Shown: piece by piece, positions 4,913 to 34,480 of the stretch | Layout of the letters: the number at the start of each line of letters is the position of its first letter | Numbering within the stretch: the first letter of the stretch is position 1 | Assembly: GCA_019241285.1 (NCBI GenBank) | Contig: JAFAXD010000504.1 | Coordinates: forward strand, 1 to 34,480 | DNA length: 34,480 bases | Source of the DNA: Xanthobacteraceae bacterium | Lineage (GTDB): Bacteria; Pseudomonadota; Alphaproteobacteria; Rhizobiales; Xanthobacteraceae | Direction: 5' to 3' | Position numbers and translations under genes: made by a program | The notes under the pieces: generated by a model | The model's database searches: none | Seen by the model: the letters and a program-made list of their open reading frames with translations, nothing else | Told to the model about the DNA's origin: nothing

Positions 4913-7900
4913 GGGGTTCTCCGACGGGCTCAATCGCCGGCGCGGGCGCGCGCCGACCATGGAGCAGGCTGAAAACAACAGGGACGAAGATGAGCGTTGC
5001 GACCGTGGCAAAGATCAGGCCGCCGACCACGGCGCGCCCAAGAGGAGCGTTCTGCTCGCCGCCTTCACCAAGGCCGAGCGACATCGGCAGCATGCCGATG
5101 ACCATGGCTAGCGCAGTCATGAGCACCGGGCGGAAGCGCACAAACCCGGCTTCGAGCGCGGCAGCAACCGGATCGCCGAGCGCGTCGAGCCGCTCGCGCG
5201 CAAAGCTGATCACGAGGACGCTGTTCGCGGTGGCGACGCCCATGCACATGATGGCACCCGTGAGCGCCGGCACCGACAGCGTCGTTCCGGTCGCGAACAG
5301 CATCCAGACAATGCCGGCAAGCGCCGCTGGAAGTGCCGTGATGATGACGAACGGATCGGTCCAGGACTGAAAGTTGACGACGATCAGCAAATAGATGAGG
5401 ACGACGGCTCCGAGCAATCCGAACAGCAGTCCCGAAAACGCGCTGTTCATGGTGTTGACCTGTCCCAGCATCGCGACCTGCACGCCTTTCGGGCGAAGGC
5501 TGGCCGTTTCATCCAGGACTTTCTGAACGTCGGCCGCCACTGCACCGAGGTCGCGGCCCTGGGTCGTGCCGTAGATCTGCACCATATTCTGGATGTTGTA
5601 TTGCGACACGACCGCGGGCGTGCCGGTGCGGTTGATGTCGGCGATCGCGCCCAACGTTTGCGCGCCCGCGCCCGGGGCCGTAATCGGCAAGTTCCTGAGC
5701 GCGCTCAGTGAGTCCATTTGGTATTGCGGCGTCTGCATGACGATGGAGTACTGCACGCCGTTCTCGGGATTGAGCCAGAACGTGGGCGCAACCTGGCTAC
5801 TGCCGGCGAGATTCACGACCATGCTGTTCGTTACATCGCGCTCGGTGACGCCGACATATTCGGCGCGGGTGCGGTCAACGTCGACATTGAAACTCGGTCC
5901 TCGGTCTGATTGCTGGATGCGAACATCGACAAGGCCGGGGACGTGCCGCAGCCGGCGCAGCAGCTCATCGGCGTAGGCATAGTCTGCATCGAGGCGCGGA
6001 CCGCGAATCTGTACGTCGATTGGAGCCGGTGCGCCGAAGTTGAGAATCTGGCTGATGATGTCGGGCGGAAGAAACGAGAAGGTCGTTCCCGGAAAGTGTG
6101 CCGGCAGCTCTTCTCGCAGCTGGCGCACGTAAGTCGCCGTCGGCTTGTGCTCCTCGGTGAGCTTGATCTGGATGTCGCCGTCCTGCGAACCGATGATTCC
6201 GGTGTTGTTGTAGGTCATATTGATGCCGCTGACCGGAACGCCGATATTGTCGACGATCGTTGCCAGCTCGTTTGCCGGCACGATTTCGCGGATGGCTTTT
6301 TCGATCGCGGCGAATTCCTCGGCGCCGACCTCGACACGGGTGCCGACCGGCGTGCGCACGTGCATCAGGATTTGGCCGGCATCAACCGACGGGAAGAAAT
6401 CGCGGCCCAGATAAGGCGCGAGTGCAAATGACGCGACGATGGCGCCCAGAAAGCCGATGACGAAAACGGCCCGTCGGCGCAGCGCCATTCCCAACAGGGC
6501 GCAATAAAAGGCCCGAAAACCCTCGAATCCCCGCTCGAACCAGCGTTGAAAGCGCACGAACGGATTGCGTGAAGGCGGCATCGCCCCATCAAGGCCATGC
6601 ATGTCCGTATGTGGCGCGTGGGGCTTGAGCAAATACATGGCCATGGTCGGGACGAGGGTTCGGGACAGGATGAACGACCAGACCATGGCCGACATGACGG
6701 CTTCCGCCATGGGCACGAACAGAAATCGCGGTACGCCGGTGAGAAAGAACATCGGTATGAACACGATGCAGATGCACAGCATCGAGACAAAGGCGGGCAC
6801 CACGATCTGCGCGGCGCCATCCATGATGGCGGTCTCGACGTCCTTGCCCTGCTCCAGATGCCAGTTGATGTTTTCGATCGTCACCGTTGCTTCATCGACC
6901 AGAATGCCGACGGCAAGTGCGAGCCCGCCCAGGGTCATAATGTTGAGGGTCTCACCCAATGCCCAAAGGGTTGCGATCGAGCCCAGCACCGACAGCGGGA
7001 TGGATGTTGCAATGATGAGGGTCGAGCGCACGCTTCCCAGGAACAAAAGAATCATCACGCTGGTGAGCGCGGCGGCGATAAGCCCTTCGCGGATCACGCC
7101 ACCGATCGCGGCGTTGATGAAAATCGACTGATCGCCGAGCAGTGCGATGTTGAGATTTTCGGGCAGGATCTCCTTGAGCTCCTGCACCTTCTTCTTGATC
7201 CCTTCGATGATCGCTAATGTCGACACCGAACCATTCTTGAGCACCTGCATCAGGACGGAGCGGCTGCCGTCCACGTGCACGATATTGGTTTGCGGCGAAT
7301 TGCCGTCACGCACGTGGGCGACGTCCCGGATGTAGACCATCGCGCCGTCGACGCTCTTGATCGGCAGGTCGGCGAGCTCGTTGATCAGCGAGGGCGCGTT
7401 ATTGAGCTTGATGGTGTACTCGAACCGACCAATCTTCTCGGTGCCAACCGGGGTGATCAGGTTCTGCGCCGCCAAGGCGTTGGCGACGTCCTGGCTCGAC
7501 AAGCTCCGCGCCTGCATCGCAGCCGAGTCGAGATCGATCTGAACCTGGCGGGATTTGCCGCCATACGGATAAGGGATTGCCGCACCCGGAACGGTAATGA
7601 GCGGCGTGCGGACCACATAGAGGCCAAGGTCCGCCAGTTGCTGCTCCGACAAGCCCTGTCCGGCCAGCGCTAGTTGAATGATCGGAACGGTGGTCGCGTT
7701 GTAGTTGAGGATCAGCGGTGGCGTGGTGCCCGGCGGCATTTGCTTGAGCACCGTCTGCGACACCGACGTGACCTGCGCATTGGCAATGCGGATGTCGGCA
7801 CCGGGTTGAAAGAAAACCTTAACGATGCCGAGTCCGTTGTACGAGGTCGCCTCGACATGCTCGATGTCATTGACCGTCGTCGTCAACACTCGCTGATATT

Positions 7901-17544: not shown

Positions 17545-17625
17545 CGTCATTGCGAGCGAAGCGAAGCAATCCAGTGCTGAGCCGCCACACTGGATTGCTT
17601 CGTCGCTGCGCTCCTCGCAACGACG
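17545..17625. repeat. Palindromic dispersed repeat, copy 1 (possible bidirectional terminator)
   Basis: CGTCATTGCGAGCGAAGCGAAGCAATCCAG ... CTGGATTGCTTCGTCGCTGCGCTCCTCGCAACGACG: long near-perfect inverted repeat, lying between two convergent genes. A second copy is at 32018-32099. Confidence 0.9.
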
Positions 17626-21184: not shown

Positions 21185-21334
21185 GAGTATCTATTCAATC
21201 ACGGATCGGCGGCGCACAACGCGCGCAAAAGAGTGAACGAAAGGACGCGCGAAAGCGTTAACTCGTCGGGGCGTCCCGTATAAGATTTCGGACTATAAGC
21301 CGTTCGTCCGTAGCGCATGAGGAGATGTGAGCCG

Positions 21335-22903
21335 ATGGACGCGCCCGACAGCACAATCGCAAAGCCTACGGACAAAGCCCTCGCAATGGCGACGTCGGGG
21401 CGAGCCGCCCCACCAGCGACAATCGTGATTTTTGGAGCGGCCGGCGACTTGACCAAGCGCCTATTGATGCCGGCCCTGTACAATCTGGCAAAGTCCGGCG
21501 CGCTGTCGGACAAGCTGGCCATTGTCGGTGTCGATCACAATGACCGGAGCACCGAGGATTGGATCCGTACGCTCAGTGAGCTGAGAGATCCAAAGACGCT
21601 GGATGCGGCCACGTGGTCGTGGCTCACGGGCCGCATGCAGTTTCTGCAGGGCGACTTTCTTGATCCCGACGCATACAAACGGTTGGGGCAGCTGCTCGCC
21701 AAGCGCCAGCAGGAGCACGGCGTCGGCAGCGCTCTCTTTTATATGGCAGTTGCTGACCGGTTCTTTGGCCCGATTATCGAACACCTCGGTAAAGCCGGGC
21801 TGGCGAACCAATCCGAGTCCGCGTGGCGGCGCGTGATCATCGAGAAACCGTTCGGACACGACCTCGCCTCCGCCAAGGCCCTCAACGCGCAGATCTTGAA
21901 GGTCCTGTCGGAAGATCAGATTTACCGGATCGATCATTTCCTCGGAAAGGAAACGGTTCAAAACATCCAGGTTCTGCGTTTTGCCAACGGCATCTTCGAG
22001 CCGCTATGGAATCGCGACCATATTGATCACGTCCAGATCACGGCCGCCGAGACGGTCGGTGTCGAGACTCGCGGGCGCTTCTATGAGCAGACAGGCGCGC
22101 TGCGTGACATGGTCCCGAGCCACCTGTTTCAATTGTTGGCGATGATCGGGATGGAACCTCCGTCCTCGTTCACGGCGAACGCGGTACGCAACAAGGAGAC
22201 GGAGCTCTTCCAGGCGATCCGCCCGGTTACGCCGAGCGACGCCGTGCGCGGGCAATACGGACCCGGCACGATCGATGGAAAGCCCGTCCCCGGCTATCGC
22301 CAAGAGCCCAATGTGGCGCCGGATTCTTCGACGGAGACCTACGTCGGGCTGAAGCTCGGAATAGATACGTGGCGCTGGGCTGGTGTTCCCTTCTATATGC
22401 GAACCGGAAAACGTCTTGCGACACGAACGACGGAAATTGCGGTTTGTTTTCGCCAAGCTCCCTATGGCTTGTTTCGCGACACCCCGGTTGAGCGCCTGCC
22501 GCCGAACATTCTCCTGCTGCGTATCCAGCCGGACGAAGGTCTGTCGATCAGCTTCAGCGCGAAACGGCCCGGGCCGGAGATCAAGATCGACGGCGTTGCA
22601 ATGGACTTCGCCTACAAGGACTATTTCGGCCCCCTGGCGGCAGTCGGGTATGAGACTCTGCTTTACGACTGCCTGCTGGGTGACGCGACGCTGTTTCGCC
22701 GCGCCGATGCGGTCGAAGTGTCCTGGTGCGCGGTTCAGGGACTGCTTGACGACTGGCCGCGCAACGCGCCTCAGGATTTTCCAAACTATGCCGCCGGTGG
22801 CAGCGGTCCCCAAGCTGCCGACGCGTTGCTCGCGCGCGATAACCGCGCATGGCTTCCGATCAAGCCAGAGCGCCGGCACTTGACCGCTTCGAATGTCTGC
22901 TGA
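21335..22903 (+). CDS. zwf: Glucose-6-phosphate 1-dehydrogenase
   Basis: IVIFGAAGDLTKRLLMPALYNLAKSG, YRIDHFLGKETVQNIQVLRFANGIFEPLWNRDHIDHVQIT, FYMRTGKRL. Start at MDAPDS (21335) with upstream GGAG. Confidence 0.97.
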   Translation: MDAPDSTIAKPTDKALAMATSGRAAPPATIVIFGAAGDLTKRLLMPALYNLAKSGALSDKLAIVGVDHNDRSTEDWIRTLSELRDPKTLDAATWSWLTGRMQFLQGDFLDPDAYKRLGQLLAKRQQEHGVGSALFYMAVADRFFGPIIEHLGKAGLANQSESAWRRVIIEKPFGHDLASAKALNAQILKVLSEDQIYRIDHFLGKETVQNIQVLRFANGIFEPLWNRDHIDHVQITAAETVGVETRGRFYEQTGALRDMVPSHLFQLLAMIGMEPPSSFTANAVRNKETELFQAIRPVTPSDAVRGQYGPGTIDGKPVPGYRQEPNVAPDSSTETYVGLKLGIDTWRWAGVPFYMRTGKRLATRTTEIAVCFRQAPYGLFRDTPVERLPPNILLLRIQPDEGLSISFSAKRPGPEIKIDGVAMDFAYKDYFGPLAAVGYETLLYDCLLGDATLFRRADAVEVSWCAVQGLLDDWPRNAPQDFPNYAAGGSGPQAADALLARDNRAWLPIKPERRHLTASNVC

Positions 22904-22928
22904 TCATTGCCAATCGCGAGGTGATGTC

Positions 22929-24014
22929 ATGAAAGCTACTCAGAAACTGCACGACCTTGGTCAGAGCATCTGGGTCGACAATATTTCCCGCGGCATGATC
23001 AAGAGCGGAACGCTGCGCCGCTACATCGACGAGCTGTCCGTGACCGGACTGACGTCGAACCCGACGATCTTCGATCATGCCGTCGGCAAGAGCGCCGACT
23101 ATGACGAGACGATCCGGCGCAAGGTCGCTCAGGGTCTCTCGGGGGAGAAGCTGTTCTTCGAGCTGGCACTCGAGGATCTGACGCAAGCCGCCGATATGTT
23201 CCGACCGATCCACGAGCGGACCGCAGGCCTCGACGGATTTGTTTCGCTCGAAGTCTCACCGCTGCTGGCGCACGATACGAAGAAGACGACGGCGGTCGCA
23301 AAGGCGCTGCACGAGCAGGGCCAGCGGTCAAACCTGTTCATCAAAATACCAGGTACGCCCGAAGGTCTGCCGGCGATCGAGGAATCGATCTTTGCGGGCG
23401 TGCCGATCAACGTGACGCTGCTGTTCTCGGCCGAGCAATACGTGGCGGCAGCCGATGCGTTCATGCGCGGGATTGAGCGGCGCATCGCGGCCGGCCTCCG
23501 GCCCCACGTGGCTTCGGTCGCGTCGATCTTTATCAGCCGATGGGATGTCGCGGTGAAGGACAAGGTGCCGTCGGCGCTGGTCAATCAGCTCGGCATTGCG
23601 GTCGGCAAACAGGCTTTCCGCGAATATCATAAGCTGCTCGATTCGCCGCGGTGGCAGCGTGCGTTCAATGAAGGCGCCCGGCCGCAGCGGCTTCTGTTTG
23701 CGAGCACCGGCACCAAGGATCCAAAGGCGTCCGACATCCTCTATGTCAAAGGGCTAGCTGCGCCGTTCACCGTCAACACGATGCCGGATGCGACCTTGCA
23801 GGCGTTTGCCGATCACGGCGATCTCGGCGCGCCGCTGCCGATTGATGGGGGCGATTGCGACAAGGTGCTGGCCGACTTCAGCAAAGCCGGGATCGATCTT
23901 GGTGCACTGGCGAACCAGCTCCAGGATGAAGGCGCCAAGTCCTTCGTAAAATCCTGGAACGATCTCATTGGCGTCATCGAGTCCAAATCGAATACGCTGC
24001 GGAAGGCTAGCTAG
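22929..24014 (+). CDS. tal: Transaldolase (long single-domain form)
   Basis: KLHDLGQSIWVDNISRGMIKSGTLRRYIDELSVTGLTSNPTIFDHAV, NLFIKIPGTPEGLPAIEE, GVPINVTLLFS. Confidence 0.95.
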   Translation: MKATQKLHDLGQSIWVDNISRGMIKSGTLRRYIDELSVTGLTSNPTIFDHAVGKSADYDETIRRKVAQGLSGEKLFFELALEDLTQAADMFRPIHERTAGLDGFVSLEVSPLLAHDTKKTTAVAKALHEQGQRSNLFIKIPGTPEGLPAIEESIFAGVPINVTLLFSAEQYVAAADAFMRGIERRIAAGLRPHVASVASIFISRWDVAVKDKVPSALVNQLGIAVGKQAFREYHKLLDSPRWQRAFNEGARPQRLLFASTGTKDPKASDILYVKGLAAPFTVNTMPDATLQAFADHGDLGAPLPIDGGDCDKVLADFSKAGIDLGALANQLQDEGAKSFVKSWNDLIGVIESKSNTLRKAS

Positions 24015-24033
24015 GGTGGATGTGAGACCGGTC

Positions 24034-24786
24034 ATGGACGACACGACGGCCGTGCGGCAAAGGCGCGCCGATGACGGCAAGCGCGTGCTGGTGATCGATA
24101 TCGGCGGCACGTCGGTGAAGCTTCTCGCCACGGGCGAGCCGGAGCGTCGGAGGTTCCCGTCGGGGCGCAAGATGACGCCGGGCATGATGGTGAAAAAAAC
24201 CATCAAGCTGGTTTCCGATTGGACCTATTCGGTGATCTCGATTGGCTATCCGGGCCCGGTGCTGCACGGCAAGCCGGTTTCCGAGCCCTATAATCTTGGC
24301 CCCGGATGGGTGGGCTTCGATTTCGCCGGCGCATTCGGACATCCGGTCAAGCTCGTCAACGACGCCGCCATGCAGGCGCTCGGTAGTTACAAGGGCGGCA
24401 AGATGCTGTTCCTGGGTCTCGGGACCGGGCTTGGCACCGCCATGATCGTCGACGGCATTATCGAGCCGATGGAGCTCGGGCATCTGCCGTACAAGAAGGG
24501 CACCTACGAGGACTATCTCGGCCGCGCCGGATTGGAGCGCGTGGGCAAGAAGCGCTGGCGTCACAACGTCGAAGAAGTTGTCGCGCGGCTGATGGCGGCG
24601 CTCGAACCGGACGACGTGGTCATCGGTGGTGGTAACGTCAAGAAATTAAAGCACCTGCCGCCCGGCTGCCGCGCCGGGAGCAATAACAATGCCTTCCTCG
24701 GTGGCTTCCGGCTCTGGGACGCGCCGCGCCCAACGGCGCGCGCGGGTGTTGCCGCGCTGACGCCGCAGCGCCGATCGAAAGGATAA
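24034..24786 (+). CDS. ppgK: ROK-family polyphosphate glucokinase-like
   Basis: [107 protein letters not shown]. Alternative GTG start at 24016. Confidence 0.82.
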
Positions 24787-24790
24787 CGCG

Positions 24791-26470
24791 ATGAGTGCCG
24801 AGCCTCAAACCGGCTCGCAGAACGGGCTGACAAAGTCGCCGGCCTGGCTTGCGCTGCAGCAACATTTTGCCAAGGTTCGCGAGCGCAGTCTGCACGCGCT
24901 GTTCGCGGAGGACTCCGCGCGCGGCGACCGTATGATCGTCGAGGCCGCGGGCCTCTACTTCGATTATTCGAAGAACCGCGCCACCGATGAGACGCTTGAC
25001 CTGCTGGTGCACCTGGCGCGCCAGGCTGGGCTGCCCGAACGCATCGAAGCAATGTTTCGCGGCGACAAGATCAATGTCACCGAGCATCGCGCGGTGCTGC
25101 ACGTGGCGCTGCGCGCCCCGAAAGGAACGTCGATCATCGTCGATGGTGAAAATGTCGTGCCGCAGGTGCATGAAGTGCTCGATCGGATGGCCGCGTTTTC
25201 CGAACGCGTGCGCAGCGGCGCCTGGAAGGGCCACACCGGCAAGCGCATCCGCAACGTGATCAATATCGGGATCGGCGGATCCGATCTCGGGCCGGTCATG
25301 GCCTACGAGGCGCTGAAGCATTACAGCGACCGCGCCATGACGTTCCGCTTCGTCTCCAACGTCGACGGCACGGATTTCGTCGAGGCGACGCGCGATCTCG
25401 ACCCGGCGGAAACGCTCTTTATCATCTCGTCGAAGACATTCACCACGTTGGAGACGATGACCAACGCGCACACCGCGCGCGAGTGGTCACTGCGCGCGCT
25501 CGGCGGCGATCAGGCCGCTGTGGCCCGGCATTTTGTCGCCGTGTCGACCAATGCCGCCAAGGTCGCCGAGTTCGGCATCGACACCGCCAACATGTTCGGC
25601 TTCTGGGATTGGGTCGGCGGCCGCTACTCGATGGACTCCGCCATCGGCCTTTCAACCATGCTGGCGATCGGTCCGGATAATTTCCGGGCCATGCTGGATG
25701 GCTTTCACCAGATGGACGAGCACTTTCGTACGACGCCGCTGCGACAGAACATACCGGTGCTGATGGGCCTGCTGGCCGTCTGGTATGGCGATTTCTTCGG
25801 TGCGGAGACGACCGGAGTTTTCCCCTACGAGCAATATCTCAAGCGGTTTCCGGCCTATCTCCAGCAACTCACCATGGAGAGTAACGGCAAACACATCACG
25901 CTCGACGGCCAGCGCGTCGATTATTCGACCGGCCAGATCTATTGGGGCGAGCCCGGCACCAATGGGCAACACTCGTTCTATCAGCTGATCCACCAGGGGA
26001 CCCGGCTCATCCCGTGCGATTTCATCGCCTTTGGGCAGTCGCTCAATCCACTCGGCCCGCACCATGACATGCTGATGGCGAACGTGATCGCGCAGGCCGA
26101 GGCGCTTGCATTTGGCAAAACGCCTGAGCAGGTTCGCGCCGAAGGCACACCGGAGTGGCTCGTTCCGCACCGCGTCTGCGAAGGCAACCGTCCGTCAAAC
26201 GTCATTCTCGCCGAACGACTGACGCCTACTACTTTGGGCAAACTGGTCGCCCTCTACGAGCACAGTGTGTTCACCCAAGGCACGATCTGGCACATCGATT
26301 CATTTGATCAGTGGGGGGTCGAGCTCGGCAAGCAGCTGGCCCAGCGCATTATCCCTGAGATTGCGAGCGAGACCGAGCCGAAGCTTAGCCACGACAGTTC
26401 CACCAACAATCTGATCAGGCGCAGTCGCCGGCTCAAGCAGTCAGGCAAGCCGCGCGCATCAGGGCCGTAA
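24791..26470 (+). CDS. pgi: Glucose-6-phosphate isomerase
   Basis: [76 protein letters not shown]. Confidence 0.97.
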
Positions 26471-27180
26471 TGAACGCCATGCCGCCGCACCGCGCGGTCA
26501 AGCTCGCGCCGTCCATCCTGGCGGCCGACTTTGCGCGTCTCGGCGATCAGGTCGCGGAAGCGGAGCGAGCGGGTGCAGATCGCATCCATATCGATGTGAT
26601 GGATGGACATTTCGTGCCCAATCTGTCGATGGGGCCGGAGGTCGTGCAGGCGTTGCGCCGGGTCACGCGCTTGCCGTTGGAAACGCACCTGATGATCTTG
26701 AACCCGGACCTGTTCATCGATGCGTTTCTCGATGCCGGCGCTGACGCCCTCATGGTGCACTGGGAAGGCAACAACGACCTCTCGCGCACGCTGCGCCAAG
26801 TGAAGGCACGCAAGAAGCGCGTCGGCGTCGCCATTAATCCGGCGACCCCGGCCGCCGTTCTGGAAGAGGTGCTGTCGGAGATCGACCAAGTGTTGGTCAT
26901 GACGGTCAATCCGGGGTTTGGACATCAGCACTTCATCGAGGCGACGCTGCCGAAGGTGAGGCGCGTGCGACAGATGATCGAGCAATCCGAGCGCCCTTGT
27001 CAGGTCGAGGTCGATGGCGGAATCGACCCGCAGACCGCGCCGCTCGCGGTCGCGGCTGGCGCCGACGTTCTGGTCGCTGGCTCGGCGATCTTCAATGAAA
27101 CGGAAAGCGTGACGGCTGCCATGCGCCGTTTGCAGGCTGCGGCGCACATGACGGAGAAAGCAAAATGCAACTCGGGATGA
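26470..27180 (+). CDS. rpe: Ribulose-phosphate 3-epimerase
   Basis: [89 protein letters not shown] overlap with pgi. Confidence 0.97.
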
Positions 27181-28181
27181 TTGGACTTGGCCGTATGGGC
27201 GGCAACATGGTGCGACGCCTGCTCAAGGCGGGGCACCAGTGTGTCGTGTTCGATAAGTTCACCAAGGCGGTCGACGACCTCGCGCGCGAGAAAGCGGTTG
27301 GGTCGTCCTCATTCGGCGACCTGGTGCAGAAACTCCAGGCGCCGCGCGCGGTGTGGTTGATGGTGCCGGCCGCTGTCGTTGACGAGACCATTCATGAGGT
27401 CGCGCCGCACCTCAAGCCCGGGGACATCCTGATCGACGGAGGCAACTCCTATTACGTGGATGACATCCGCCGCGCCAAGGAGCTCGCATCCAAACAAATC
27501 CACTATATCGACGTCGGCACCAGCGGCGGCGTGTGGGGCCTTGAGCGCGGTTACTGCATGATGATCGGCGGCCCGCAGCAAGCGGTACGCCACCTTGATC
27601 CGATCTTCAAAGCTCTGGCCCCCGGCATCGGCAACATTCCGCGCACGCCTGGGCGGGAGAAGCTCGATGGCACGGCGGAGCAGGGCTATCTGCATTGCGG
27701 TCAGAACGGCGCCGGCCACTTCGTCAAGATGGTGCACAACGGCATCGAATACGGCGTCATGGCCGCTTACGCGGAAGGAATGAACATTCTGCGTCATGCC
27801 AATATCGGCAAACAGCAGGCAACGATCGACGCGGAAACGACACCGCTGCGCGACCCCGAGCTCTATCAATACGATCTCGATTTGCGCGACATCGCCGAGG
27901 TCTGGCGCCGCGGCAGCGTGATCGCGTCGTGGCTTCTGGACCTCACCGCCTCCGCGCTCGCTCAGGACCCGCAGCTCTCCAAATTCGGCGGCCGCGTGTC
28001 CGACTCCGGCGAAGGCCGCTGGACCGTGAAGGCCGCAATCGACGAGGCGGTGCCGGCGCCCGTGCTCTCAACGGCGCTTTACGAGCGCTTCAGCTCGCGC
28101 GGCGAAGCAACGTTCGCGAACCAGCTTCTGTCGGCGATGCGGTACGAATTCGGAGGACACCTGGAGAAACCCAAGGAGTAG
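27165..28181 (+). CDS. gnd: 6-phosphogluconate dehydrogenase (decarboxylating), short form
   Basis: [82 protein letters not shown]; 338 aa. Confidence 0.95.
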
Positions 28182-28183
28182 TT

Positions 28184-28897
28184 GTGCGTATCGACGTTCT
28201 GCCCGATTCCGATGCGGCCGCGCGGAAAGCGGCCGCAATCATTGCCGGCGAGGTGCGAGCCGCCGCGTCGCGCGGCCGCTTTGTCATGGCGGTGAGTGGT
28301 GGGCACACGCCCTGGCAGATGCTGCGCGCGCTTGCGGCCGAGGATCTTCCTTGGGAACTGATCCACGTGCTGCAGGTCGATGAGCGTGTTGCCGCTGCGG
28401 GCGATCCGGACCGCAACCTCGTGCATCTGCGTGAGAGCCTGCTCGCACGCGCGCCGTTGCGCTCCGATCAGATTCACGGGATGCCGGTCGAAGCATCGGA
28501 TCTGCAGCGCGCAGCCCAGGATTATGCGGCGACGCTGGAGCAGCTCGCCGGGTCCCCGCCCGTGCTCGATCTCGTCCATCTCGGATTGGGGCCGGACGGC
28601 CACACGGCATCGCTGGTGCCCGGCGATCCGGTGCTGCGGGTCACTGACAAAGACGTCGCGCTGGCGGGACCGTACCAGGGACACCGCCGCATGACCCTGA
28701 CCTATCCGGTGATCAACCGCGCACGTTCGGTCCTGTGGCTTGTGACCGGGGCTGAGAAAGCGCCGGTGTTGCCACGGCTGCTGGCCGGCGATCAATCAAT
28801 CCCCGGCGGTCGCATTGCTCAGGAGCGCGCGGTGGTCATTGCCGACCGCGCAGCAGCAAGTCAGCTCGATGAGAGTAAGAAAGAGGTGCGTGCATGA
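28184..28897 (+). CDS. pgl: 6-phosphogluconolactonase
   Basis: GTG start at 28184 within the longer ORF track 27695..28897. RFVMAVSGGHTPWQMLRAL, VLQVDERV, LGLGPDGHTASLVPG, typical of DevB/Pgl. Confidence 0.92.
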   Translation: MRIDVLPDSDAAARKAAAIIAGEVRAAASRGRFVMAVSGGHTPWQMLRALAAEDLPWELIHVLQVDERVAAAGDPDRNLVHLRESLLARAPLRSDQIHGMPVEASDLQRAAQDYAATLEQLAGSPPVLDLVHLGLGPDGHTASLVPGDPVLRVTDKDVALAGPYQGHRRMTLTYPVINRARSVLWLVTGAEKAPVLPRLLAGDQSIPGGRIAQERAVVIADRAAASQLDESKKEVRA

Positions 28898-31005
28898 GCG
28901 AAACGCAAACCACCGCCAAACCCGCGGCGCAGAACCGTGACGCCGCCAGCATGGATCAGCTGGCGATCAACACCATCCGTACCCTCTCGATCGACGCCGT
29001 CCAGCAGGCAAAGTCCGGTCACCCCGGCACGCCGATGGCGCTCGCGCCGCTCGTCTACGTGATCTGGAACCGGATCATGCGGTTCGATCCGCAGGATCCG
29101 ATCTGGCCGAACCGGGATCGCTTCATTCTCTCCAACGGGCACGCATCGATGCTGCTGTGGTCGATGCTGCACCTGACGGGAACGCGCGCCGTCAACGCCG
29201 CGTACGAACGGCTGGGCGAACCATCCGTTACGCTCGATGACATCCGCCACTTCCGCCAGCTCGGCAGCAAGGCGCCCGGACATCCCGAATATCATCTCGT
29301 CTCCGGGGTCGAAGCCACGACCGGTCCGCTCGGGCAGGGCGTCGGCATGAGCGTCGGCATGGCGATGGCACAGAAGTGGCTCGCCGCGCGCTACAACAAG
29401 CCCAGTTTTCCGATCTTCGACTACAACATCTACACCATTTGCGGTGACGGCGACATGATGGAAGGGATCGCGTCAGAAGCCGCATCGCTCGCCGGCCATC
29501 TGCAACTCGACAACCTGTGCTGGATCTACGACAACAATCACATCACCATCGAGGGCAAGACCGAGATCACGTTTACCGAGGACATCGCGAGCCGCTTCCG
29601 CGCCTATGGCTGGAACGTGCTGCGCATCACCGATGCCAACGACCTCGGCATGATCGAGCAGGCACTCGATCAGTTCCGCAATACCAAGAGCCGGCCAACC
29701 TTCATCGTCCTCGACAGCCATATCGGCTACGGCGCGCCGCACAAACACGACACGGCCGCCGCCCACGGAGAGCCGCTGGGTGACGAGGAAGTGCGCCTGA
29801 CCAAGCGCGCCTATGGCTGGCCGGAGGACGCAAAATTCCTGGTGCCGGATGGGGTGCGCGAACACTTCGATGCCGGCATAGGCGCGCGTGGTGCCACGGC
29901 CCGCCGCCGCTGGGCCGAGTTGTTTGGTGCGTACCGCACCCAGCATGCGCCACTCGCGACCGAGATCGATCTGATGCAACGGCGCGAGCTGCCCGCCGGA
30001 TGGGATACGGGACTTCCTGTGTTCCCGGCCGATCCGAAGGGCATCGCCGGCCGCGAGGCCTCGGGCAAAGTGCTCAATGTGCTGGCCCAGAACATCCCCT
30101 GGTTCCTGGGCGGCTCGGCCGATCTCGGCACCTCCAACAAGACCACGCTGACGTTCTCCGGTGCCGGCGATTTCGAGCCGGGCAATTACGCCGGAAAGAA
30201 CCTGCATTTCGGGATTCGCGAACACGCCATGGCGGCGTCGGTGAATGGCTTGGCGCTCTCCAAGCTGCGGCCGTTCGGAGCCACGTTCTTCATTTTCACG
30301 GATTATGCGCGGCCGTCCATTCGCCTCGCTGCGCTGATGGAGATACCCTCCCTGTTCATCGTCACCCACGATGCCATGGGCGACGGCGAGGACGGCCCGA
30401 CCCATCAGCCGGTCGAGCAACTTGCCTCGTTCCGCGCCATGCCGGGCATCAGCGTGATCCGTCCCGCCGACGCCAACGAGGTCACGGAAGCCTATCGCCA
30501 TATATTGCAACTGCATCACAAGCCGACGCTGCTGGTCCTGTCGCGCCAAGCGCTGCCGACTTTGGACCGCAACACATACGCATCCGCCGCTGGTGTGGCG
30601 CGCGGGGCCTATGTGCTCGCCGACCCGCCCTCCGGCAATCCCGAAGTGATCATCATTGCGTCGGGCAGTGAGGTGAGCCTCGCCGCCACCGCCTATGAGC
30701 AGCTCAAGAGCCAGAATATTCGCGCGCGCGTGGTCTCCATGCCGTCGTGGGATATTTTTGATGAGCAATCGCAAGAGTATCGCGACAGCGTATTGCCGCC
30801 GCAGATTACGGCACGGGTCGCCGTCGAGCAGGCCTCGACCTTCGGCTGGGAGCGCTATGTCGGACAGCACGGCCGTGTGGTCGGTATGCACACGTTCGGC
30901 GCCTCCGCGCCTCTCAAGGAGCTGCTGCGCAAATATGGCTTCGAGCCGGAACGCCTGGTTGACGTCGTCAAACAAGTGCTGACCGCCACGCAGGCCCGAA
31001 CCTGA
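28894..31005 (+). CDS. tkt: Transketolase
   Basis: NTIRTLSIDAVQQAKSGHPGTPMALAPLVYVIWNRIMRFDP, GDGDMMEGIASEAASLAGHL, HDAMGDGEDGPTHQPVEQLASFRAMP; ATGA overlap with pgl. Confidence 0.97.
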   Translation: MSETQTTAKPAAQNRDAASMDQLAINTIRTLSIDAVQQAKSGHPGTPMALAPLVYVIWNRIMRFDPQDPIWPNRDRFILSNGHASMLLWSMLHLTGTRAVNAAYERLGEPSVTLDDIRHFRQLGSKAPGHPEYHLVSGVEATTGPLGQGVGMSVGMAMAQKWLAARYNKPSFPIFDYNIYTICGDGDMMEGIASEAASLAGHLQLDNLCWIYDNNHITIEGKTEITFTEDIASRFRAYGWNVLRITDANDLGMIEQALDQFRNTKSRPTFIVLDSHIGYGAPHKHDTAAAHGEPLGDEEVRLTKRAYGWPEDAKFLVPDGVREHFDAGIGARGATARRRWAELFGAYRTQHAPLATEIDLMQRRELPAGWDTGLPVFPADPKGIAGREASGKVLNVLAQNIPWFLGGSADLGTSNKTTLTFSGAGDFEPGNYAGKNLHFGIREHAMAASVNGLALSKLRPFGATFFIFTDYARPSIRLAALMEIPSLFIVTHDAMGDGEDGPTHQPVEQLASFRAMPGISVIRPADANEVTEAYRHILQLHHKPTLLVLSRQALPTLDRNTYASAAGVARGAYVLADPPSGNPEVIIIASGSEVSLAATAYEQLKSQNIRARVVSMPSWDIFDEQSQEYRDSVLPPQITARVAVEQASTFGWERYVGQHGRVVGMHTFGASAPLKELLRKYGFEPERLVDVVKQVLTATQART

Positions 31006-31019
31006 CGGTCGCGCCGCAC

Positions 31020-31697
31020 ATGAGCACACCCGACATCGTCTTCCTGTTCGATATCGACAACACGCTGGTCAACAATGACCACGTCCAGGCCGATCTCAAA
31101 CAGCACCTCGCAACGACGTACGGCCCGGAGGCGCGCGATCGCTATTGGGAGATCCTGGAGCAGAAGCGGACTGAGCTCGGATATGTCGACTATCTCGGTG
31201 CATTGGAACGCTACCGGGAGGAATCGATGCACCGGCCGGAAATCCTGCGCATGGCGAACTGGCTGATCGACTACCCGTTCGCCGACCGCGTATATCCGGG
31301 CGCCCTGGATGCCGTGCGGCACGTGCGCCAATGGGGGCTGCCCGTCGTGCTGTCCGACGGTGACGCCGTGTTTCAGCCGCGCAAAGTGGAGCGCTCCGGG
31401 GTCTGGAACGAATTCGAGGGGCGGGTGCTGATCTATATTCACAAGGAGGAGGAGCTTGACGACGTCGAGCGCCTCTATCCGGCGCGCCATTACGTGCTGA
31501 TCGATGACAAGCTGCGCATTCTGGCGTCGGTCAAGAAAGCCTGGGGCGACCGCGTCACCACCGTGTTCCCCAAACAGGGGCATTACGCGCTCGATCCGGC
31601 GACGCTCGCCGAATATCCGCCCGCCGATGTCGAGTTGGCGGCGATCGGGGATTTGGTGAAGTTTGATCTGAAGCAGCTGGTAAAGCAACGGACATAG
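31020..31697 (+). CDS. HAD-superfamily hydrolase
   Basis: HAD motif I FLFDIDNTLVNND, motif II VVLSDGDAV, motif IV VLIDDKLRI; last gene of the PPP cluster. Confidence 0.88.
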   Translation: MSTPDIVFLFDIDNTLVNNDHVQADLKQHLATTYGPEARDRYWEILEQKRTELGYVDYLGALERYREESMHRPEILRMANWLIDYPFADRVYPGALDAVRHVRQWGLPVVLSDGDAVFQPRKVERSGVWNEFEGRVLIYIHKEEELDDVERLYPARHYVLIDDKLRILASVKKAWGDRVTTVFPKQGHYALDPATLAEYPPADVELAAIGDLVKFDLKQLVKQRT

Positions 31698-31818
31698 TCG
31701 CAGTCCACGTCTCAGACTGGATTCTGCTCACAAGTCGCAACTGCGTTCTTGACTTGGCGAAAGCAAAACGGATTGTCTGTTTGCTCTCGTGCAACGGCGC
31801 GACGACATGTGCGCTCGG

Positions 31819-31862
31819 CCATTTCGAGACGCATGCGCGCGCGCATGCTCCTCAGGATGAGG
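31819..31862 (-). repeat. CCTCATCCTGAGG...GCGTCTCGAAATGG-type dispersed repeat (inverted copy)
   Basis: CCATTTCGAGACGCATGCGCGCGCGCATGCTCCTCAGGATGAGG is the reverse complement of the element type seen at 31918 and 34430. Confidence 0.85.
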
Positions 31863-31917
31863 TCTGAGTTTGTTGAAGCGCTGCCGAGATTGTTCATGCG
31901 CAGTCACGCACCGCCGC

Positions 31918-31968
31918 CCTCATCCTGAGGACCATGCGTGCGCAGCACGCATGCGTCTCGAAGGATGG
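31918..31968 (+). repeat. CCTCATCCTGAGG...GCGTCTCGAAGGATGG-type dispersed repeat (direct copy)
   Basis: CCCTCATCCTGAGGACCATGCGTGCGCAGCACGCATGCGTCTCGAAGGATGG, with a stem GCATGCGT/ATGCGTGC inside. Confidence 0.88.
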
Positions 31969-31983: not shown

Positions 31984-32380
31984 GTCATCTATGAAGAAAC
32001 GTCATCTATGGCAGAATCGTCATTTGCGAGCGTAGCGAAGCAATCCAGTGCGGCCCCTCCGCACTGGATTGCTTCGTCGCTTCGCTCCTCGCAATGACGA
32101 GTCTAATCGCGCCGAGCGCGGTTGCTGCCGGCCCATTCATCGGGCCTGGATCGAGCACGACGTCATGTATGGGGAACTACGTCATCAATGACGTGTCACG
32201 TCATCTATGAGATTCCAACGTCATGTATGGCCGAACCGGCGAACCTGTACCTAGGACCGCGAGAACTCGCAACGCCATCGCCGGCATACCAATTTGCGGC
32301 GTCATCTATGACGGGCGATGTCATCTATGGGGAAGGGTCACCTATCGGGAGAGGTCACCTATGGGAAAATGACATCTATG
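31984..32380 (+). repeat. Interrupted array of GTCATCTATG-like decamers (11 copies, three sub-clusters)
   Basis: Cores at 31984, 32001 / 32162, 32181, 32200, 32220 / 32301, 32320, 32337, 32354, 32371. Within sub-clusters the start-to-start spacing is 17-20 bp. Confidence 0.85.
32018..32099. repeat. Palindromic dispersed repeat, copy 2
   Basis: CGTCATTTGCGAGCGTAGCGAAGCAATCCAGTGCGGCCCCTCCGCACTGGATTGCTTCGTCGCTTCGCTCCTCGCAATGACG, near-perfect inverted repeat and same family as 17545-17625. Confidence 0.92.
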
Positions 32381-32468: not shown

Positions 32469-32756
32469 TCAGCGGCGGCCGTGCGAATAGTAGTAGTTCG
32501 GCGCCAGCACGCCCTGGCTCGTGATCAGCGAGGGGGCCGACACCGGGCCGCGGTTCACGCCCAGGCCGAGCACGGGGTTGCCGCCTCCGCCTCCCGCGCC
32601 CATAGCGAGTGCGCGGACCATGTCGTCGGGATCGGCAAGGCTCGAACCAAACCCACCGGCCCCGCTGGAGACGATGGTGAAGGCAGACGCACTATAGGCA
32701 GACAGCAGCAAGGCAGCCGCTGCCACGGCGAGCGAGAGCGTTCGCATGGAAGTCAC
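32469..32756 (-). CDS. Small exported glycine-rich hypothetical protein
   Basis: 95-aa ORF with signal peptide MRTLSLAVAAAALLLSAYSASAF, then a GAGGGGGNP segment and C-terminal NYYYSHGRR. Confidence 0.6.
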   Translation of the reverse strand: MTSMRTLSLAVAAAALLLSAYSASAFTIVSSGAGGFGSSLADPDDMVRALAMGAGGGGGNPVLGLGVNRGPVSAPSLITSQGVLAPNYYYSHGRR

Positions 32757-34236: not shown

Positions 34237-34429
34237 GCACTGACCTACAGACCCGCGACCGCGAGTCGCGTCGTGCGCACTGCGCCCGACGTGACCGGGC
34301 ATAGCGGTGTCGGGATCGGCGTCGTCACAAATGCCGGCTTGCCGTCGTTCAAATATCTGGCCGCGCCGCTGAGCCCGGCGCAACTCGATGAGGTAATTCA
34401 GATACCGGGAGCTAATTGAATCCTCGGGG

Positions 34430-34480
34430 CCCTCATCCTGAGGAGCACGCGGGCTCTGCCCGCGTGCGTCTCGAAGGATG
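34430..34480 (+). repeat. CCTCATCCTGAGG...GCGTCTCGAAGGATG dispersed repeat, reaching the window edge
   Basis: CCCTCATCCTGAGGAGCACGCGGGCTCTGCCCGCGTGCGTCTCGAAGGATG; same family as 31918-31968. Confidence 0.88.

Follow-up and report, generated by a model that had tools for sequence, protein, structure and literature searches.

The window, that is, the whole stretch of 34,480 nucleotides that was analysed, contains an intergenic region in which eleven GTCATCTATG-like decamers occur on one strand (Table 1). The region is bordered by a gene for a HAD-like hydrolase, the 3' end of which faces the array, and by a convergent ORF resembling a small secreted protein, for which no match was found in Pfam. 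All eleven units lie where a sequence-only reading of this DNA had placed them, and its description of the variant units (GTCATCAATG at 32181, GTCACCTATC at 32337, GTCACCTATG at 32354 and GACATCTATG at 32371) and of their spacing (17-20 bp inside the sub-clusters, exactly 17 bp for the last four units) is borne out. When up to two mismatches are allowed, GTCATSTATG has 56 matches in the window, where dinucleotide shuffles give 35.0 +/- 6.4. Eleven of the 56 are the same-strand array units, all inside 400 bp. The gaps around the sub-clusters contain two palindromic repeat elements, e1 and e2, which that reading had overlooked; the e2 element has many copies elsewhere in the genome, at 82-93% identity.

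Table 1. Features of the decamer array region of the window, and inverted modules at other loci (given as locus:positions).
Feature	Position	Strand	Remarks
Upstream gene, HAD-like hydrolase	31020..31697	+	Pfam PF00702, E 2e-7; 3' end towards array
Promoter-like leader block, TTGACT...GCAAAAC	31749..31780	+	R1 match 31747-31819
Palindromic REP-type element e1, CATCCTTCGAGACGC arms	31823..31962	.	inverted repeats I1 and I3; upstream of sub-cluster 1
Decamer sub-cluster 1	31984..32010	+	units 31984, 32001; spacing 17
Palindromic REP-type element e2, GTCATTTGCGAGCG...CGCAATGACG	32019..32104	.	perfect 18-bp inverted repeat I2; between sub-clusters 1 and 2
Decamer sub-cluster 2	32162..32229	+	units 32162, 32181, 32200, 32220
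Decamer sub-cluster 3	32301..32380	+	units 32301, 32320, 32337, 32354, 32371
Convergent small secreted-protein-like ORF	32469..32756	-	stop 88 bp past last decamer
Inverted modules	L117:4900-4970 and 5142-5212; L124:7837-7907; L103:4680-4750
Inverted modules, continued	L126:5587-5656 and 5711-5782; L098:1663-1734 and 1789-1859; L146, L147, L148

The home genome (G000) is one fragmented MAG of 6.63 Mb in 680 contigs (92.7% complete, 3.5% contamination). A motif scan over the whole of it returned 277 matches to ACGTCATSTATGR when one mismatch was allowed, as against two for the reversed pattern, and 157 phased pairs of the form GTCAYSWATG-N6-12-GTCAYSWATG, as against none for the reversed control, and the motif thus stands far above background. 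At least 59 arrays were mapped, with 364 exact units (from about 60 loci); at least three exact units were needed for an array to be counted, and because of how the clusters were built all units of an array share a strand; units on the opposite strand are rare at the mapped arrays. The arrays are intergenic and 47-735 bp long, with intervals between units of 17-19 bp in 138 cases and 9 bp in 14. The 7-9 bp spacers are nearly all distinct (124/137) and on the decamer strand contain only 2-9% T at most positions (e.g. L112:734-781). The unit has a core with dyad symmetry, CAT-NN-ATG, and its common variants GTCATGTATG and GTCATCAATG differ at the centre only. Stop codons are fewer on the unit strand (379, versus 823 on the other, in about 17,000 codons each) because the spacers are poor in T, and a coding function was rejected since the 17/19-bp spacing breaks any frame. 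Searches of the window and five leader or module loci with the Rfam covariance models gave no match at gathering scores, weak SAH and miRNA matches on the palindromes being taken as chance, and neither inspection by eye nor a scan for intrinsic terminators revealed a consistent signal at the array ends.

The arrays are strongly polarised with respect to their neighbours. In 24 of the 31 arrays that face a convergent gene, the last unit (in the GTCATCTATG direction) is no more than 40 bp away from that gene's stop codon, whereas on the opposite side of the array a gene end is found within 40 bp in only 3/27 cases (Fisher p 3e-7). In several arrays the stop codon falls inside the last unit, the complement of which, CATAGATGAC, contains both TAG and TGA. 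The neighbouring genes themselves are diverse, with 128 Pfam families in 83 flanking proteins and no family in more than three, and arrays occur in convergent, tandem and divergent gene contexts. The earlier suggestions of an iteron-like array and of a multi-site operator accord poorly with these observations: the at least 59 arrays are dispersed and no linkage to rep genes was seen, and the diversity of flanking genes and orientations does not accord with an operator for one gene.

Palindromic elements are interleaved with the units. Most are e1, of about 145 bp with CATCCTTCGAGACGC arms, or e2 (GTCATTGCGAGCG); of 121 e1 arms, 74 have a decamer no more than 60 bp away. The e1 family was matched in 41/60 relatives, in which phased decamers are almost absent, and the decamers are therefore a lineage-specific addition. 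Elements of the same general sort have been published as the Br-REPs of Bradyrhizobium (PMC5082802). Br-REP1, Br-REP2 and the other Bradyrhizobium REPs are likewise palindromic, intergenic, located in 3' regions and family-wide (PMC5082802), but the decamer array is made up of direct repeats and is absent from the REP-carrying relatives. Modules of 70-73 bp with inverted decamer ends (GTCATCTATGGCTAAGnnATTGAA..ATTTT..CATAGATTCCATAGATGAC) were also observed on about nine contigs, mostly at the array end distal to the leader described below and often two or three in series, in which case the GCTAAG type precedes the ATGAAG type. The 71-bp head-to-head modules were considered as structured RNAs and rejected, as the only structure that alifold returned was a decamer stem of 8 bp in which one pair covaries.

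At the gene-distal ends of the arrays a further sequence, GGGCTRTTTGAYA, was noticed, with 32 matches in about 80 loci, all of them in one orientation and at most 300 bp from a unit. The aligned leaders consist of TTGACA, 15-16 bp, GCAAAA, a variable stretch, a hairpin and the block GGGCTRTTTGAYAnnGTGAATCAGA. A leader model (R1) was built from 28 leaders, which it then recovers, and is sequence-only because the hairpin lengths are too variable to be aligned as a structured covariance model. R1 identified 37 leaders at E<1e-5 in the loci analysed, and at least 38 leaders in all lie ahead of arrays. Behind 37/37 leaders at least two same-strand units follow within 700 bp, and the units around them number 280 downstream on the same strand, 16 downstream on the opposite strand and 16 upstream in all. 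The motif was found by inspecting arrays, and independent support comes only from the rRNA leaders and relatives presented below and from C228, a contig new to the analysis that was picked out by R1 alone and has seven same-strand units behind its leader. Twenty-four of the 59 arrays, including that of the window, have no R1 match on their 5' side, and in a few of these, L073 for example, the leader is located within the cluster. The hairpin directly before the block scores 8.33, compared to 5.82 +/- 0.34 in mononucleotide shuffles, while TTGACA..GCAAAA has the full score of 12/12 in 11/33 leaders, a value never attained by shuffles, of which 0.1% reach 11. In neither the window region nor L112 did a consensus promoter scanner report a sigma-70 promoter, and no consensus -10 was found there. 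The possibility that the leader drives an adjacent protein gene was also considered, and was rejected on gene orientation, which for the upstream gene is divided 15 to 17, while the downstream gene is convergent at 23/30 home-genome leaders.

The GGGCTGTTTGACAAnTGAATC block, with an abutting hairpin, is also found a few hundred bases before the 16S rRNA (recognised by GAGAGTTTGATCCTGGCTCAG in L224 and L225) of the two relatives G158 and G207, and GGGCTRTTTGAYAnnGTGAATC is therefore, as far as sequence can tell, the rRNA boxA antiterminator of the family. The leader boxA fits GYTCTTTAANA, a consensus drawn from the gamma-proteobacteria (PMC5725501), at 9/11 positions. Matches to R1 were obtained in 88/300 same-family genomes, mostly through the half comprising the hairpin and GGGCTGTTTGACA, and other relatives carry boxA at many places outside rRNA operons. 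One of them (G104, loci L206-L218) carries a conserved non-coding element, no shorter than 330 bp, in 13 or more copies; this element ends in a hairpin and an rRNA-type boxA, runs mostly towards a convergent gene end and gave no Rfam match in the copies tested. The downstream gene is convergent in 22/28 of the relatives' orphan boxA loci. Given this shared convergent setting, orphan boxA units look old in the family, and the decamer arrays look like a filling of such units peculiar to one lineage.

The leader copy of the window itself is incomplete. Its R1 match (16.1 bits, E 0.0025) covers model positions 2-68 only; TTGACT...GCAAAAC proper spans 31749-31769 and e1 comes directly after, occupying the position where boxA would come next. 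The boxA part, present in 37 other loci, is missing, and by comparison with L078 the gap resembles, by eye, a deletion between short CGG repeats. As the promoter-like block is retained without boxA, the window array is probably a relic or degenerate member of the family, and its role is thus to be judged on the intact loci.

Beyond the home genome the arrays are very rare. Among 199 same-family genomes, which include no further genome of the home genus, phased pairs number four in G091 and one each in two others. Across 84,980 species genomes a comparable array was found in one other MAG only, Hyphomicrobiales CP_BM_RX_14 (the same G091), the other nine matches looking like chance or unrelated repeats. 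This array (L129:68-392, JAFAUQ010000074.1) has its 5' side cut by the contig end. The MAG that carries it, 66% complete, is of another genus than the home genome, and the array may be native to it or a contaminant. A phage or plasmid origin was rejected, as no viral contig in IMG/VR contained a phased pair and the plasmid search yielded no match to the array.

A typical locus thus consists of the promoter-like block TTGACA-N15/16-GCAAAA, a hairpin, boxA and same-strand units with purine-rich, T-poor spacers and interleaved REP-type palindromes, and it often ends directly at a convergent gene's stop codon. This order, with over half of the arrays behind rRNA-type leaders, suggests that the arrays are transcribed into a kind of long non-coding RNA that has yet to be described; no description of such arrays was found in the open-access literature searched, although this absence is not proof of novelty. 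We assign a probability of about 0.5 to the reading that these loci are boxA-led non-coding transcription units in which the decamer has a binding role. RNA polymerase would start at the leader, Nus factors would load on boxA and render the polymerase resistant to Rho, and the entire untranslated array would be transcribed, as with rRNA and the CRISPR precursor. The array RNA would then offer many GUCAUCUAUG sites to a putative RNA-binding protein, as a scaffold or a sponge. It is established that boxA occurs before long non-coding RNAs and CRISPR arrays, where it helps RNA polymerase to cross untranslated arrays (PMC7862264 and Stringer 2020, cited there). The earlier reading is right in that the multi-site array is real, and an array bound by protein is possible, but the standard leader, with its promoter-like and boxA sequences, points to transcription of the array and to binding at the RNA level. 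Against a transcription unit speak the missing consensus -10, the 24 arrays that have no R1 match on their 5' side, the discovery of the motif by inspection, the fit of boxA to the gamma-proteobacterial consensus at only 9/11 positions and the variable length of the arrays, as in mobile repeats.

The strongest competing explanation, itself tentative, is an intergenic mosaic at the DNA level comparable to the NIMEs (dRS3 and RS repeats), in which the decamer would be a recombinase or transposase site, the palindromes passengers and the leader a carried rRNA-type fragment without RNA function. In NIMEs, too, short repeats by the hundred flank larger repeats of various kinds, the intergenic arrays are a few hundred bp long, and both systems are confined to one lineage. 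NIMEs are reported to contain dRS3 in about 700 copies and to form arrays 200-2700 bp long (PMC3898611), and the size and intergenic position of the decamer arrays, the several kinds of larger repeat flanked by short ones, the proximity of e1 arms to decamers and the patchy, lineage-specific decamer distribution all accord with such a mosaic. The unit here is GTCATCTATG, however, and not the dRS3 sequence ATTCCC(N8)GGGAAT (PMC3898611), and the arrays are unidirectional, often with a promoter/boxA-like leader at one end, and anchored at convergent stops. A fixed leader at one end, strict strand polarity and stop-codon anchoring are not expected of passive mosaics; moreover, no recombinase gene is among the common families beside the arrays and no decamer was found with a gene-carrying insertion.

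That the decamers are sites for a DNA-binding protein, a regulator or nucleoid protein, with each array acting on its neighbours, is improbable. Direct repeats phased at 17-19 bp and sometimes at 9 bp, variable spacers and a dyad core altered only at the centre in GTCATGTATG and GTCATCAATG would suit such a protein, but the neighbour genes are unrelated, convergent, tandem and divergent positions are used alike, and the leader is left unexplained. Very unlikely indeed is an origin as insertion sequence ends with subterminal transposase-binding repeats, which had been suggested from the window array. The 70-73 bp modules with inverted decamer ends recall such remnants, but nothing lies inside them, those left ends that were found pair only at 70-73 bp and never with a longer element, and no target-site duplication was seen. 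Transposase and integrase genes are absent from the 25 most frequent of the 128 families in the 83 flanking genes, and with flanking genes so diverse and no transposase standing out, the idea of a decayed insertion sequence fails.

The boxA-led transcription unit can also be set beside known RNA systems. boxA antitermination is known mainly from rRNA operons, some mRNAs and CRISPR arrays, and rRNA operon leaders comprise a promoter, boxB, boxA and boxC. The array leaders share with these the order of parts, with a promoter-like block, a hairpin and boxA, and a boxA block that matches the 16S leaders of relatives, but have no rRNA behind them, and boxA mostly follows the promoter-like block at 52-126 bp as against about 180 bp in the 16S leaders of G158 and G207. 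CRISPR arrays, with repeats of 23-47 bp and unique spacers of similar size, resemble the decamer arrays where a boxA leader, with a promoter in CRISPR and a promoter-like block here, is followed by same-strand untranslated repeats. They differ in that the decamer arrays combine a unit of 10 bp with spacers of 7-9 bp, which are far too short for targets, as against about 30/30 in CRISPR, and are dispersed over many loci with REP palindromes inside; no link to cas genes was seen among the 25 most frequent of the 128 flanking families. CsrB/RsmZ-type sponges, in which one RNA carries many copies of a short motif, are a functional analogy only, the motif here not being GGA, the loci numbering dozens and no sign of a CsrA-like partner having been seen.

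In a more specific form of the same reading, put forward here as a tentative proposal, the arrays would be non-coding genes peculiar to the lineage, about 40-60 in number. Each would have a promoter and an rRNA-type boxA to itself and would yield a long Rho-resistant RNA in which many copies of the decamer bind a dedicated partner. Such a repeat-RNA system, spread over many loci, would differ from CRISPR, from CsrB-type sponges and from REP elements, and would build on orphan boxA units that are older and occur across the family. If boxA-led transcription is correct, the dozens of orphan boxA leaders in this genome, all of them ahead of an oriented repeat array that mostly runs towards a convergent gene end, together with the further orphan boxA loci in many relatives, would show that bacteria maintain a substantial group of protected non-coding transcription units unseen by gene annotation and Rfam.

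Elsewhere in the window, extra e2 and e1 copies occur at 17545-17625 and 34400-34480, away from decamer arrays. Positions 21317-31005 hold, on ORF reading only, a pentose-phosphate gene cluster with genes for glucose-6-phosphate dehydrogenase, transaldolase, phosphoglucose isomerase, ribulose-phosphate epimerase, 6-phosphogluconate dehydrogenase, 6-phosphogluconolactonase and transketolase.
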